From Chloropicon primus (taxonomy: Eukaryota > Chlorophyta > Chloropicophyceae > Chloropicales > Chloropicaceae), in contig CP060771.1 of the NCBI GenBank assembly GCA_023205875.1, forward strand, positions 1 to 64,000: a DNA stretch of 64,000 nt. The letters are read 5' to 3'. Each line of letters begins with the position of its first letter. Position 1 is the stretch's first letter. The position numbers were made by a program, and so were the translations under genes. Below are positions 3,516 to 61,491 of the stretch, piece by piece. Under the pieces are notes generated by a model that was not told the DNA's origin, ran no database searches, and was given only the letters and a program-made list of their open reading frames with translations.

Positions 3516-3621
3516 ACGCGGTAAGCAGCGGGTGGTTTTAATGTAGACGAGTGAAAACTAAAGGTGCGACGATAACAAGGACAACGCGACGAAAAAAACA
3601 CCACCCTATAAAGGTGCGAGA

Positions 3622-54458: not shown

Positions 54459-54792
54459 CAAGAATGAAGCTCTGGCGCTGTGGCTGGAGCCTGGTTCATC
54501 AGCCAACAAATGGTTCCTCTCTCTGCCTCTCTCTCTCTCTGTCTCTGTCTCTCTCTGTCTTGGTCGATTGACCCCCACGACAAGAAGGATGGTGATGATG
54601 ATGAGCGGTCGGCCGTATACGCTCAGAGCAACAGCAGCAGCAGCAGCAGCAAGCTGTCTCTCCTTGGGACTTGTGTGAGTCCTCTCTCTCTCTCTCTCTC
54701 TTTATGTATGTGAATGTTGATATAATACTCAATAGGCATTTTATGTGACGATATTGAGAAAGGAGTGGCCCAAAACGCCCGCCATATTTGTT

Positions 54793-57700
54793 TTACTTTT
54801 GCATGCTAATGAACCTCGACCGCTTCTTCTTCACTTTCTTCGTGGCGACTGGCAAGTTGGCGACGACGTCGTCCTCCTCGCCCTCGGCAAACGTTCTCAG
54901 AAGACTCTTTCGCTTCTCCTTCACGAGGTGGGAGATCTGGTGGTGCTCCACGTTCTCGTTGGAGCCCTCCAGGAAGTAGGTGTGCATGATGCCCTTGCCC
55001 TTGACCTGGATGTCGCCCCTTTCCCTGATCTTATAGTTCCCGCCCTTGAGGAAGTTCTGGGAGGCTTCCGTCATCTGGCACGTTCCCGGAATACCCGTGC
55101 TGATCATCCTCGACGCCGTGTTGACCGTGTCGCCAAAGATGTGGTAGAACGGACGGTGGACACCAATGATTCCGGCGGTGACCGGACCCGAGCTCATTCC
55201 AAAGTTGATCTTCACGTCCAAGCCAGACTTGTTGTTCTCCCGAGGAACCCAGTCATCCGTCTTCAATATCAGCAGCTGGGACACGAAGTTCGCCACGAGC
55301 TGGGCGTGGTTGTTCTTGGCTTTGGGCATGCCGCTGGCGGCCAAGTACATGTCCCCGACCGTCTCCACCTTGTACAGCTGGTGCCTGTCGACGAGAATGT
55401 CGAAGACGAAGAAGATCGTGTTCAGGAGCTCGACCACCTGGACGGAGTCCAACACTTTCGTGACGTGCTTTTCAAAGCTGTCGATGGAGCAGAACACCAG
55501 AGTCACTTGCTTGAACTCGTGGCAGATGGGAAACACGGTGGCCCCGTAAAGCTCCTTGGCCACTGCCTCCGGAAGCATGTTGTTGAGCACGATGTGAGAC
55601 TTTTGCCTCTCCAGCTTCTGGCCGAGCTCGCCAAGGAAGTCCTTCCTCTGGTTGTACTCCATGGTGAAGACCATGTAATTCACGAGGGATGCGAAGGTCA
55701 TGACGTAGCCCAAGGACCAGAACAGGTGCTCCTCCTTGAACTCGAGCCAGGGCTTCGCGATCTGATCGGCTATTACGAAGTAGCCCACGATGCTCGTATG
55801 CAGGACAGCGATGATGTAAAGCAACGGAATCGTGACGACGGACCTCAAGCGAAGGAAGAACCCGCAGAACAAGATGTAGAGCATGATCCCTCCGTAACCT
55901 GGCTCCTTGCCCACCACCGACAAGAAGCTGCAGGCGATGCCCAGCAGCGTGGCGAGCAGCATGCTCACCGAGGTGTAGGCTTTGGGCCTGGTGTACCACT
56001 GAGTGAAGGAGAACGCCAGCCAGATGACCGTCAAGGGAAGGGCCCCGAGGTACCTCACCAGCAGCAGGCTCTCCAGGGCGCTGTCCTTCCTGATCACGTA
56101 GTCGTACAAACCGAGGGTGGCAATGAAGAAAAGGAGGCAAGTGATGTTGAACCTCCTCCAGGGAATCTCGTTCGAGAGTCGAAGCTGGAACAGGGACTCG
56201 GCCCTGTCGTAGTCGAACAGCAGCGTGATCCCGTTGATGTTGGTGTTCTTCAGGACAACTCCTTCCACCATGCACTCGGCAAGACTGGCCTCCATGGAGT
56301 GTCCCACCCACGAGACCGCGCCCTTGAAGATTCTGTTTGTGATCTGGCTCACGTTGTTGGTAAAAGACTCGAGCTTGATGGAGGAGAGCTCCATCCTGCC
56401 CCCCCCCCTCCTCGCGCCAGGCTCCTTCTTCTTGTACCTGGCCTTGATCGGGATCACCCGCGTCATCTTGTTCCTCCTGTACTGGCAGCAAGACATCAAC
56501 TTCCCCGATATCGACTGCAGGAGGCCTTCTCCCCCATCTGGGATCTCCTCCTCGTCGTCCTCGCTGTCTTCGCTCCCCTTCTTTCCTCGCATGATCGTGG
56601 GACGCATTCCAGGGAAATCCTCCCTGCTTCCAGGGAAGGCTTCCTTCTTGTTGTTCGCCTTCTTCTCCTTCTCCCCAGCCTTGGGGCTGAACGGAGATTC
56701 AGGGATGTCGCCTATGTCATCGTCGTTCAGCCCCACTTCCAAAGAACCGACGGAACCAGTGTCTTCCCTCTCGTTGGTTTCGTCCATGTTTCCAATCACG
56801 GACCCCACCCCTTTGACCACGCTGTCCAGGAGACTCTCCTCTGGCATGATGCTGATGCTCTGCCTTCTCGAGACGTTCCTGTTCAAGGAATGCACGGAAT
56901 CGATGTACAGCCTGTTGATGCACCACATCCTTAACCCCGGGTTCTTGGCGATGTAATCCATGAAGTTCTCCTTCTTGATCTTGAAGGCCATTCCCCTCCT
57001 TATGCATTCCGCCTTCGTTACGCAGGGGAGGCTCTCGCTGTCAAGCAAAGCGTTCATGTCTCCAAGGATGGAACCGACCCCGAACTTCAAAGTCTTCGTC
57101 TTTTCCACCTCGATCGTCAGCTGAATCGTCGCGGACAAGTTGATGATGCAGTACTGAGCCACGTCGCCGATATCCCAAAGCACGTCCCCTTGGTTGATCT
57201 CGTACCTCTCGGCGATCGACATCAAGTTCGTCTTCTGCACGGAGGTGAGATCCTTGAACATAGTGTTACAGAGCAGGGTGTCGAGGAAGCCAAACGCCTG
57301 CATGTCAAGCATCTTGGTGATCTTCTGAGAGGCCTCGGGCATCTCATCAAGCATCTGCTGGAGGTCCTTTCCGCTGATGCTTATGGCTTCCACGTCCGTG
57401 AGGGCCGAAATGTCCACGTTACTCAGGTGGCCCGGCAGCAAGCAGCACTCCCCAAAATAGTCCCCAGAATAAGCTTTGGAGTGTATCTTTCCCATGTCGC
57501 TATCGATGTTAACGATTCCCAACCGAATGATGAAGAAATTGTCGACCCTGTCCCCTTCCTTGCAGATCAGAGATCCGGGGGAGAACTTGACGTTTTGGGC
57601 AAGCTGGAGAATGTCCCTCGCCCTGTCGCCGGTCATGAAGATTCCCTTGAAGAATGGTATCGTCTCCAGCAGCTCGAGGACCTCCACCGCATCCCCGCTC

Positions 57701-60700
57701 TCCTTGGCCTCGATGTCCAAGACCAGCGTGTTTTCCACTCCCTCTCGGGCCAGCTTAAGGCCAAGGTCGTTCGGAACGTCCTTCTCCGCGATGTGCACGA
57801 GCCACATCCTCTCCTTGACGTCTTCAGGCAAGGAGCTCAGGCTTCTCACAGGCGTATGAATGGGAGGAACTCCGCACTCGTGCAGTATGAGAGAGTAGTC
57901 CCAAGTCTGCTGCAGCAGCATGTCTTTCCTCTCGTTCGACATCACGCCCTCCTTGTGCATCTTCTCGATCAGCTCCACGTCATTGCAAGTGTCGCCAGAG
58001 TAATAGATCGTCTTCCCGCAGAACTTTGCCACGATACCGATGGCAGGAATGGTGTGCATCGTGTAAAACACGTTGATTTCTCCTCCGTTGATCAGGATGG
58101 GCTCGCCCACGATCGCGGGCCTCGCAATGAATAGCGTCTGCAGGAACTCCTCCTCAAGGTTCGTGAGGAGCGAATACTTTCTGATGAAGGAGTTCAAAAT
58201 TGCCGTGGTCGTGATCACGGTGCACTGGGTCTCTGCGAGAATTTTCTGCAGAGTTCCGCCGTCGTGGTCCGCGTGACAATGCGTCACCATCACCGCATCG
58301 ATCAGCCTGGCAGGGATGCCATAAGACTCCAACAAGGCCACCGAATTGAGTGGAGGGTCAACCATGATGCCTCTGCGGTTCATCCACAGCACAAAACCCG
58401 TCGTGGTTCGGTTCGGATCGAACCCATGGGAGGAACCAAGGATGGTTACGCCAAACAGTGGAGGGTCGAACTTCCGGGATGGGGTGTGAACGTGCTCGTT
58501 CAAAATCTTCTTCAGGGCGTGGGACTCCGTGGCGATCTTCGTGGGAATTCTCGCAATCGTCTCCCCGTTCTCTCGGACCTCAAAGCCGCTGACAACGTCC
58601 TTGATAACGACCTCCACGGAAGAGTCGATGTTCTTGCTTCCCGAAGCTTTCAGCTTCTCCAGCAGCTCACTTGTGATGTTGATCTCCCCAGAGGTCTTGT
58701 CAAAATGAATGAACTCCATCAGCTGGTCTGGGTCATCGAACGTTCTCAGCGAGGCGCACTCCTTGACAACATCTGACCTGCATTCTTTGGGAAAGTTTTC
58801 GCTGTACTCGATATCGTAGTCAATCGTGCTTGGCCCCACAAGAGTCTCTCGAAGCACTTTCCTGAGCCTCCTTTCCACCGAAGGATAGGTCAAGAACGTG
58901 GGCTTCCTGCCGAGCACGAAAAAGTTGAAGTAGGTTGGGAACTCCACCTCTGCCATGCAGATTCCGCACTTCTGGTCGAAGAGCTGGTGGGGTATGACGT
59001 AGCACACGGGCATCTTGTCCCTGATATCCTTTGCGGCCTCCATCTTCATGAGCATTGCGTCCTTGATGGTCTCCGGAGGGATTCCGAACTGGATGTTGCC
59101 TATGGCGGTGCGAACCATCACACCACCCCTTGGCAGCTGGACCACGCGGTCGCCGAGACTCGCCACGTTAATGGGGGCGCTCTGGTCTTGGTGGTTATCC
59201 TCGAAGTAGGAGGTCTCCTTCTCGTCCTCCGTCTCTTCGGTGATCATGCTCGTGGACTGGCCCTGCTTGAAGAACGTGGTTCGCCTACGCGTGTGCTTTC
59301 TCAGCGCCATCTGCGTGTGCTTCGACTTTGTTTTCCCCTGACCCTGCTTTTGCTGCGCCATCTCCTTGAGCCCCGCGGTGGTGAACTTGCCACTCTCATC
59401 AGGCACGGGCTCCAGCTTCTCCTCCGGCATGTCTATGTCGTCGGGACCCATCATCTTACCAAACTTAGTGGTCTGGGCGTGAAGGTCTCCCCTGATGCTT
59501 CCGAACACAGGAAGGCTAGCCCTCTTGGCAAATTTGACTTTCTTAGACTTCTTCCCCTGTATCTTGAAATCCTCCTCCTGTTCCTTGAGCTCGTCCACGC
59601 GCTCCTGCACCAAGTTCTGCAGCTTCTCCCTAGCCTTTTCTATCTGCTTGGTGATGCTATCGTTCCCTCCTTCCTTGGGGCCAATCAACAAGTACGTCTC
59701 CATCTTCTTGTCCTCGTGGCCCTTGATCTCGATCCAACCTCTCCTCTGCAAAATGAAGTACTCTTCCAGCAGTGTCTTGGTATAACTGCTGACCTGTATC
59801 GCACCTTCTACACCCCCTGCTTCAAGGTGCTCCGCAGTCGCTACTGTTTCTCCCCAAAGATGGTACCTCGGCATCTTCATCCCGATCACCCCAGCGATGA
59901 TGGGGCCGGAATGGATACCTATGCGGATGTTCACTGGATAATTGTTCGTGCTGTTGATGATCGGAATCTGCTCCAGCATACTGAGGCCGAAGTTCGTGAT
60001 GGACGCGGCGTTGATCTTGGACTTGAGAGTGATCTCCCTCTGCGTCAGCTTCCTGTCGTCCACGGAATCGTCGTTCATGTCAAGCCCACTGACCGCCTCG
60101 TAGGCGTCCCCGATCGTCTCCACCTTGTACACCCCGTAAATGTCCGTGAGCCTATCGAAAACGCAGTACAAGTTGTGCAACAAGATACAGATGTCCGAAG
60201 GATGCTTGTCCCCGGACAGCTTGGTGAACCCAACGATGTCGCTGAACAGAACCGTGGCCACTGGGAACTCGTCCGCGATGGCTTGGGTCCCGCTGCGAAG
60301 GGCCTTCACGGCCGAGGAAGGCAACAGGTTGTGCAAAAGATGGTTCATCTTCCCTGCCTCTAGTTGCACAATCACCGCGTTAAGGAACTCGCCCCTGAGC
60401 GTATTCTCTTGTACGTAAGACCCATACATGCAGCAGATATCGAGCAGCAGCAGCACGCCCACGTCGTTGAAGATCTTCCGGTTCCAGTCCGGCCTGTTGA
60501 ACTTTGGGTACTCGTTCCCAAGGTCGTCTTCACTCTTTACATACAAAAAGGCGTAGTGCGCCCCAATGATACACAACGTGCTCACGCTCGCCTTGAAGAA
60601 GCGAGACTGTGTGACGTGCGTCCCATCAAGCAGGCCAGAAAGAAAGAGAGAAAGAAAGAGAGAGACAAATTGAAATTGTTGTGGGTCAGCATCACTCCCA

Positions 60701-61491
60701 CCTAAGCTCACGAGGGGCGTGCATGGTCGCCATCGCGTTCTTTCTCTCCCACCGGTGCTGGTGCTGGTGTCGGTGACGGTGACGGTGACTTACCTTGGAG
60801 AGAAAAAAGGTATAAAATACAAACATGAAGACTGGTCCGTAGCCGGCGTAGTCTCCACCCAAGACGGCCATCGCAGAGAGCCCCGTGCCAAAGATGAAGT
60901 TGAAGATGGAGATGGCATACTGGATGTAGTGCTGGTACGTTTTCGTGGTCGACAGCAAGAGCAGCATGACCCCGAGGGGCAAAAGGGCCGCATATCGAAT
61001 GATAACGAGCGTGCCCAGCGACAATATCGAATCGTGATCGTTGTTGACGTGATACGAAAAGTCTGCGATACCTAAGAGCGCCGTGATCACTAACAAACAA
61101 AAGCACGCGATCTGACTCCTTTTCTTCACCAGCGTGTAATAGTGTGTGCCGAAGTCTTTCTCAAGCTTCGAGTCTTGGAAAGTCAGGAGGATGCGGTTTG
61201 TCTTCACATTCTCTACCGCTTTCTGTGGTTCGGGCCGTGGCGGCGTGGCAAGAAGAAACGAGAACACAAGCAAGTCAGTCTATCTGCGAGTCGGAGGAGG
61301 AGGAGGAGGAGCAAACCTTCCAGAAAACCATAGAGGAGGCTTTCCATGGTTTGTGTTTGAAACATTCAACTTGCCTGCTTGTGGTGCCAATTGATCAGCT
61401 CTTCTATTCCCGAGGCGTGGACCGTGGGCTTCCCATTGTCGTCCGTTTTCTCCTCGGGCAGGATGTTCGACAATTTGAGACTCCCCGACAT
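54793..61491 (-). CDS. 12-TM class III cyclase with an embedded MBL-type phosphodiesterase and two cNMP-binding-like domains
   Basis: Exons 61491-61375, 61222-60794 and 60606-54793, all phase 0, give 2119 aa. Six TM helices (about 75-247) lead to the LLPSSAVKAL signalling helix and cyclase domain C1 (about 297-495). A charged linker follows, then a metallo-beta-lactamase fold (about 900-1157; ligands H958, H960, D962, H963, H1033, D1054, H1120). Two cNMP-binding-like domains come next (about 1169-1272 and 1317-1402), then six more TM helices (about 1668-1831), NMLPEAVAKEL and cyclase domain C2 (about 1872-2062). C1 keeps both metal Asp (305, 349) but lacks the catalytic Asn/Arg. C2 keeps Asn2011, Arg2015 and the KGKG Lys but has Ser1889 for a metal Asp. 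Glu1930 in C2 favours GTP. It probably makes and degrades a cyclic nucleotide at one membrane site. Confidence 0.93.
57684..58455 (-). other. MBL-fold phosphodiesterase domain inside the cyclase gene
   Basis: Two-metal motif THCHADHDGG at 58252-58284, TMHTIPAIG, YYSGDTCND and WLVHIAEKD supply the full ligand set. The following cNMP-binding pair matches the order known from Dictyostelium GbpA/GbpB (PdeD/PdeE). Confidence 0.85.
60607..60793 (-). other. Second intron of the cyclase gene
   Basis: The donor GTAAGT follows CTCTCCAAG and the acceptor is GTCACACAG. It contains a (CTTT)n tract. Splicing joins FYTFFLSK to SRFFKASVSTL between TM helices 4 and 5. Confidence 0.85.
61223..61374 (-). other. 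Apparent GC-AG intron of the cyclase gene
   Basis: The exon end CACAAGCAG is followed by GCAAGT, the standard GC donor consensus, and the acceptor is CGAACCACAG. Both sides are phase 0. No GT donor nearby keeps the frame as well. Confidence 0.7.

Follow-up and report, generated by a model that had tools for sequence, protein, structure and literature searches.

The window analysed here, a stretch of 64,000 nucleotides, opens chromosome 18 of the small marine green alga Chloropicon primus RCC138 (C18:1-64000 in our whole-genome searches, which covered 17,584,162 bases in 20 contigs), and its start (1-300) consists of telomere repeats of the AAACCTAA type. Its reverse strand carries, from 61491 to 54793, a gene for a large membrane protein with the following domain order: six transmembrane (TM) segments (6TM), cyclase domain C1, a conserved domain without Pfam match, a metallo-beta-lactamase (MBL) domain, two successive cyclic-nucleotide-binding domains (cNBDs), a second 6TM domain and cyclase domain C2. 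We regard this architecture as close to certain. A preliminary description of the same DNA, made from the sequence alone, had proposed such an order in a single polypeptide with a 12-TM, two-domain cyclase frame. The open frame, the Pfam matches, the hydropathy and the alignment of the two halves bear this out, and the gene limits that it gave were exact, the coding sequence (CDS) remaining open for 2119 amino acids (aa) with the splices predicted below.

All elements of the gene lie on the reverse strand. A single stop-to-stop frame of 1998 codons (54793-60789) holds both cyclase domains and the insert between them, and the spliced protein reaches its full length once two predicted upstream exons are joined (CDS 61491-61375, 61222-60794, 60606-54793); residue numbers are given for the spliced protein and equal the frame number plus 121. 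The predicted exon 1 (61375..61491) starts with the ATG at 61491 and encodes 39 aa. Exon 2 (60794..61222), also delimited by predicted splicing, encodes TM1-TM4 of the first membrane domain and aligns with the second 6TM half, and exon 3 (54793..60606), whose frame is open from 60789, encodes the remaining protein and the stop. Two donors were tried for the predicted intron 1 (61223..61374): only the GC donor, giving a GC-AG intron, leaves the frame open, and the GT alternative was ruled out by the 41 stops in the resulting frame. The predicted intron 2 (60607..60793) is of the GT-AG type, and its splice is supported by homology, since the TM parts of the two halves align even when taken alone (E 8e-9), in an alignment that spans the junction.

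When the bases of the locus were shuffled 200 times, the longest stop-free frame had 265 aa, against the 1998 aa observed. The G+C content at the third codon position is 0.67-0.88 in 22/22 blocks, linkers included (21 blocks of 100 codons, the last block being shorter), whereas the 1 kb upstream of the gene has 0.50-0.53 in every phase, below the third-position values of the gene. Because these values are uniform through the linkers and the upstream G+C content is lower, nothing points to an intergenic gap concealed in the gene, and the stop-free frame together with this uniformity leads us to reject the possibility that two genes were read as one. Two long open frames run antisense to the gene, at 54736-56934 (+; 732 aa) and 58777-60363 (+; 528 aa), and are probably by-products, as would be expected of a gene rich in G+C at third codon positions.

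The domain search that the preliminary description had suggested found, in the whole protein, two stretches matching Guanylate_cyc (E 6e-96) and two matching cNMP_binding (E 6e-19). The two 6TM-cyclase halves align with each other at 29% identity (E 2e-42). A simple hydropathy scan gave peaks for five of the six TM segments of the first membrane domain (aa 77-245; 60418..61111, with intron 2 inside) and for all six of the second (aa 1669-1828; 55669..56148). It missed TM4 of the first half; this segment falls at the exon junction and was positioned by alignment with the second half. The same scan also gave four peaks in soluble parts, one of them reaching 1.81.

The two cyclase domains have diverged in opposite directions. 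C1 (59683..60267; Guanylate_cyc E 2.2e-49) was aligned to AC5, AC8 and NPR1, C2 (54964..55518; E 3.7e-46) to AC5, AC8 and AC9, and the roles of the metal, base and transition-state positions follow the account in PMC2576301. C1 retains both metal aspartates, D305 (in FSDI) and D349 (in IGD), and has lost the transition-state Asn and Arg: GETVATAEH replaces the helix, with A438 and H442 at those positions. Conversely, C2 has lost the first metal Asp (FCSI, S1889) and retains N2011, R2015 and K2051 (VKGKG). The losses are thus complementary, which argues for one composite active site in which C1 is the metal donor, the order of transmembrane adenylyl cyclases (tmACs), and an active cyclase is likely on these residues. 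The base positions of C2 are E1930 and H2004, and the second base-recognition position is His in C1 as well. According to the relevant part of PMC2576301, this pair is Glu and Cys in guanylyl cyclases, and the second position is Asp in adenylyl cyclases. We therefore hold with moderate confidence that the cyclase most likely makes cGMP, Glu being the guanylyl residue and His an atypical one. The complementarity of C1 and C2 also bears on whether the two activities share a molecule, since transcripts or processing might split the cyclase from the MBL parts and leave no bifunctional molecule in the cell. Long linkers on both sides of the insert would fit such a split, and the gene is known here from DNA alone; yet the two complementary-looking cyclase domains flank the insert, no stop separates the domains and the codon-position G+C content is uniform through the linkers, so that we consider a split very improbable.

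C1 and TM7 are separated by the insert, a single cassette of ~740 aa whose homology to bacterial proteins covers its entire length. As a single query, the algal module gave no match in bacterial/archaeal or viral contigs. A degenerate, hand-made pattern derived from the EFPxYFNFF motif was searched in bacterial and archaeal contigs and found 67 loci, 62 of them encoding a relative of the cassette and five without one; from these relatives, 45 entered a script alignment and 41 the alignment A1, the rest, many of them cut by the end of the locus, being omitted. In viral contigs, the pattern occurred in nine stretches, none of which places the motif within a frame of at least 100 aa. The cassette opens with a strongly conserved domain of ~200 aa before the MBL (58495..59139; PPETIKD ... 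EFPxYFNFF), with columns that are invariant with the 41 bacterial rows. This N-terminal domain, widespread in Spirochaetota and also found in other bacteria, had no match in the Pfam scan and is not mentioned in the preliminary description.

The MBL phosphodiesterase (PDE)-like domain follows at 57730..58479. Its metal ligands H958, H960, D962, H963, H1033, D1054 and H1120, which follow the pattern HxHxDH, His, Asp, His, are identical in 41/41 bacterial relatives, and the alga keeps, as counted by eye, 63 of the 73 positions conserved in this region (conserved meaning shared by 85% or more of 45 relatives). Identity to the bacterial proteins reaches 51% in the MBL, against ~38% for the cassette as a whole. 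Lactamase_B_2 scored 31.9 bits in the genome search, above the 27-bit cut-off, and PDEase_I has no Pfam match in the fusion protein. Structure prediction of the insert, also suggested beforehand, agrees with the proposed domains: AlphaFold2 models the whole cassette with a predicted local distance difference test score (pLDDT) of 86.4 and a predicted TM-score (pTM) of 0.90, and the MBL alone with a pLDDT of 91.8, the modelled folds being an MBL nearest to Apyc1 and tandem cNBDs. In a Foldseek search of the PDB with the MBL model, three Apyc1 entries provide the four top-scoring chains (query-based TM-score 0.68-0.71), and lower matches include YhfI, tRNase Z, PhnP-type proteins and a cAMP-bound MBL protein (7e3w). 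Apyc1 degrades cyclic nucleotides. These anti-Pycsar proteins have the MBL fold and are the nearest PDB structures, with a weak sequence match; they differ in being stand-alone phage or bacterial proteins, with 17-19% identity to the algal MBL over the aligned part. The assignment of the MBL is thus based mainly on the full-length bacterial relatives, the metal ligands and the predicted fold, and these make an active phosphodiesterase likely.

The cNBDs tell a different story from the MBL. cNBD1 (57316..57699), which matches cNMP_binding in Pfam, keeps the Glu of FGE, and its phosphate-binding Arg, found in 39/41 bacterial relatives, is Ser in the alga (S1244); by eye, it keeps 10 of 19 conserved positions, against the 63/73 of the MBL region. 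cNBD2 (56920..57282), the second member of the modelled tandem fold, lacks the phosphate-binding motif: Asp replaces the motif Glu and the Arg is absent, and these columns are unconserved among the bacterial relatives too. The nearest solved structures to the cassette model are the tandem cNBDs of PKA and PKG. The Arg of the motif grips the cyclic phosphate, as described in the part of PMC3080414 that concerns it. Given its replacement in cNBD1 and the missing motif in cNBD2, feedback by product binding to these domains, which the preliminary description had thought possible, is not the best reading; domains without this Arg might still bind something. Such loss is not general in C. primus, because the cNBD of a paralogue on contig C11 retains FGELALLKDQPRNAT. 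This paralogue (1588 aa; C11:689674-694437, L039:3175-7938 +) reads cNBD - TM - C2-like - TM - C1-like, that is, with the cyclase order reversed and the cNBD N-terminal.

Bacterial frames with MBL-cNBD-cNBD are mostly ~700-900 aa long. In phylum surveys that counted the cassette at E <= 1e-100, it was present in 89/198 genomes of Spirochaetota (the phylum of L097, a Leptospiraceae genome), in 28/39 of Candidatus Wallbacteria (the phylum of locus L084), in 6/246 of Planctomycetota (that of L058) and in 3/235 of the phylum of L054, a member of the Myxococcales; the cassette is thus common in some bacterial groups and rare in others. Together with the N-terminal domain, it marks a bacterial protein family for which we met no described function in the literature searched. 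We found no fusion with a cyclase in bacteria, where 132 of 139 loci have the cassette: two frames match the cyclase model, neither of them bearing a cassette, and Pfam found no cyclase in eight bacterial proteins, long frames of 1076-2413 aa among them. Survey matches without a cut locus were judged for fusion from frame length alone. Cassette frames have at most 874 aa in three of the four surveys, Spirochaetota included; the other has five of 1037-1496 aa, of which four match the lengths of frames scanned with Pfam and the fifth (L190) was checked by the cyclase model only. Cyclase genes do occur beside the cassette. At L084:1715-5700 (+), from Wallbacteria, a class III cyclase gene ends in a TGA that overlaps the likely GTG start of the cassette (GTGA at 3529-3532), and at L065 a CHASE2-cyclase frame lies 1.4 kb downstream of the cassette on the same strand.

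In a quick tree of 92 rows, the branch of the algal row is long, with 1.35 changes per column, and lies near rows of Planctomycetota and Myxococcota; we do not claim horizontal gene transfer from a named bacterial phylum. The long branch of the module and the drift of cNBD1, at 9/19 conserved positions and in its Arg, would also be expected if the MBL cassette were a silent or otherwise-acting regulatory insert, the protein then being a cyclase whose C1b loop carries a scaffold. Such decay is hard to find in the MBL itself, which retains all seven metal ligands and most of its conserved positions, and is more conserved than the cassette around it; we judge a silent insert decidedly unlikely.

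We lean instead towards a bifunctional membrane enzyme in which cyclase and phosphodiesterase would both be active. The two homologous 6TM-cyclase halves would fold as in mammalian tmACs or Dictyostelium GCA and form a single active site where C1 meets C2, to which C1 would contribute the metal aspartates and C2 the residues for base, ribose, transition state and triphosphate. An entire PDE cassette of the stand-alone type (N-terminal domain, zinc MBL and two cNBDs) would fill the C1b position, from C1 to TM7, and would most likely hydrolyse cyclic nucleotide next to its site of synthesis. As cNBD1 has lost its Arg and cNBD2 has no motif, these domains probably serve to couple phosphodiesterase and cyclase structurally and not to sense cyclic nucleotides. 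The self-contained unit of synthesis and degradation envisaged in the preliminary description stands in that the catalytic residues of both enzymes are kept, and we infer from these sequences both activities, the substrate, turnover of the same nucleotide and coupling. Several observations weigh against this interpretation. First, the His at the second base position is neither the Cys of guanylyl cyclases nor the Asp of adenylyl cyclases. Second, Lactamase_B_2 scored 26.6 bits on the whole protein, slightly below the cut-off. Third, the structural neighbours also include MBL folds that act on different substrates (tRNase Z, PhnP-type, arylsulfatase). Fourth, a cyclase beside the bacterial cassette is rare (2/132 loci, whose flanks are short and among which some genes occur twice), and a pairing so uncommon is only suggestive.

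If both domains work, synthesis and degradation would be held at a fixed 1:1 ratio in one membrane spot, and models of cyclic-nucleotide microdomains would become testable in a single molecule. It is tempting to go further and propose that a single messenger, probably cGMP, is both produced and degraded by this one molecule, with intramolecular coupling, an extension that we advance tentatively and with some doubt. The non-binding cNBDs would then turn the conformation of the cyclase directly into PDE activity, with the PDE sitting in the regulatory loop of the cyclase, which would give short, self-limiting pulses for which product binding is unnecessary. In that case, cyclase and PDE would have been joined once more and independently, a bacterial-type cassette having entered a 12-TM cyclase. 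Alternatively, both enzymes could act on different nucleotides (cGMP made and cAMP destroyed, or the reverse), so that one signal would lead to a fall of the other. The Glu at the first base position suggests a guanylyl cyclase, we saw no feature of the MBL sequence that would set its base preference, and members of this class can favour one nucleotide or the other, as GbpA and GbpB show (PMC11988041). The presence of both enzymes in one chain is nevertheless most simply explained by turnover of one messenger, and CAPE, a fusion protein of streptophytes, is reported to make and destroy cAMP (PMC8115329); action on different nucleotides therefore seems to us unlikely.

Each part of the bifunctional enzyme that we favour has relatives among known systems. 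To our knowledge, Dictyostelium GCA and ACA and the mammalian tmACs have no phosphodiesterase at the C1b position. Like the algal protein, they have two 6TM-cyclase repeats and one composite site, as outlined in PMC11988041. The same source describes, where it treats them, Dictyostelium GbpA and GbpB as cyclic-nucleotide phosphodiesterases with an MBL followed by two cNBDs. The likeness of the algal cassette to these class IIb enzymes, already noted in the preliminary description, is one of domain order, with all seven metal ligands present in the alga. GbpA and GbpB are, in that account, cytosolic and activated by cyclic nucleotides, whereas the algal cassette is fused into a cyclase and its cNBD1 lacks the phosphate-binding Arg. 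The bacterial MBL-cNBD-cNBD proteins are homologues of the whole cassette, none of whose frames matched the cyclase model (132 loci).

That a cyclase can include its own phosphodiesterase is already known, since CAPE of Marchantia and other streptophytes, like the CAPE-like proteins of oomycetes, combines both in one membrane polypeptide. In the passages of PMC5159850 and PMC8115329 devoted to it, MpCAPE is described as an N-terminal class I PDE and a C-terminal class III adenylyl cyclase with both activities measured, the CAPE-like proteins are said to have arisen independently in oomycetes, and control of one messenger is proposed for CAPE. CAPE has a single C-terminal adenylyl cyclase domain, with TM regions between this domain and the PDE, whereas the algal protein has two complementary cyclase domains, 12 TM segments, Glu at the base position and an MBL-type PDE with two cNBDs. 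The PDE class, the 12-TM cyclase with a composite site, the Glu, the insertion at C1b and the two cNBDs are thus what sets the algal protein apart from CAPE. The preliminary description knew of no enzyme alike, and the exact combination was indeed not found in the literature searched, in which a chain joining cyclase and PDE was already known; relatives may exist undescribed, for example in other algal proteomes. If both domains work, the algal protein would add a further origin of such fusions to those of CAPE and its oomycete counterparts, this time with an unrelated class of PDE, and would show that they have arisen repeatedly.

Within the C. primus genome, no second MBL-cNBD cassette was found, the other 27 matches of the insert search being to the cNBD part only. 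Class I PDEs are represented by seven PDEase_I matches, on contigs C1, C2, C3, C4, C13 and C19, and PDEase_II by none. With 0/7 PDEase_I matches beside a cyclase match, a CAPE-type fusion of class I PDE was rejected for this genome. The first C. primus genome paper (strain CCMP1205) lists 30 guanylyl cyclase genes, among the largest families (PMC6731263). The terms 'phosphodiesterase' and 'cyclic nucleotide' do not occur in the main text of that paper; its supplement lists the cyclases, our gene probably among them as a guanylyl cyclase, and we saw no description of the fusion. More two-domain cyclases, or adjoining pairs of cyclase frames, lie on contigs C5, C7, C9, C12 and C15. Near-copies of two-domain cyclases occur at C7:767811-778951 (three match pairs) and at C15:362595-374588 (two), and those on C15 carry a stop inside a match.

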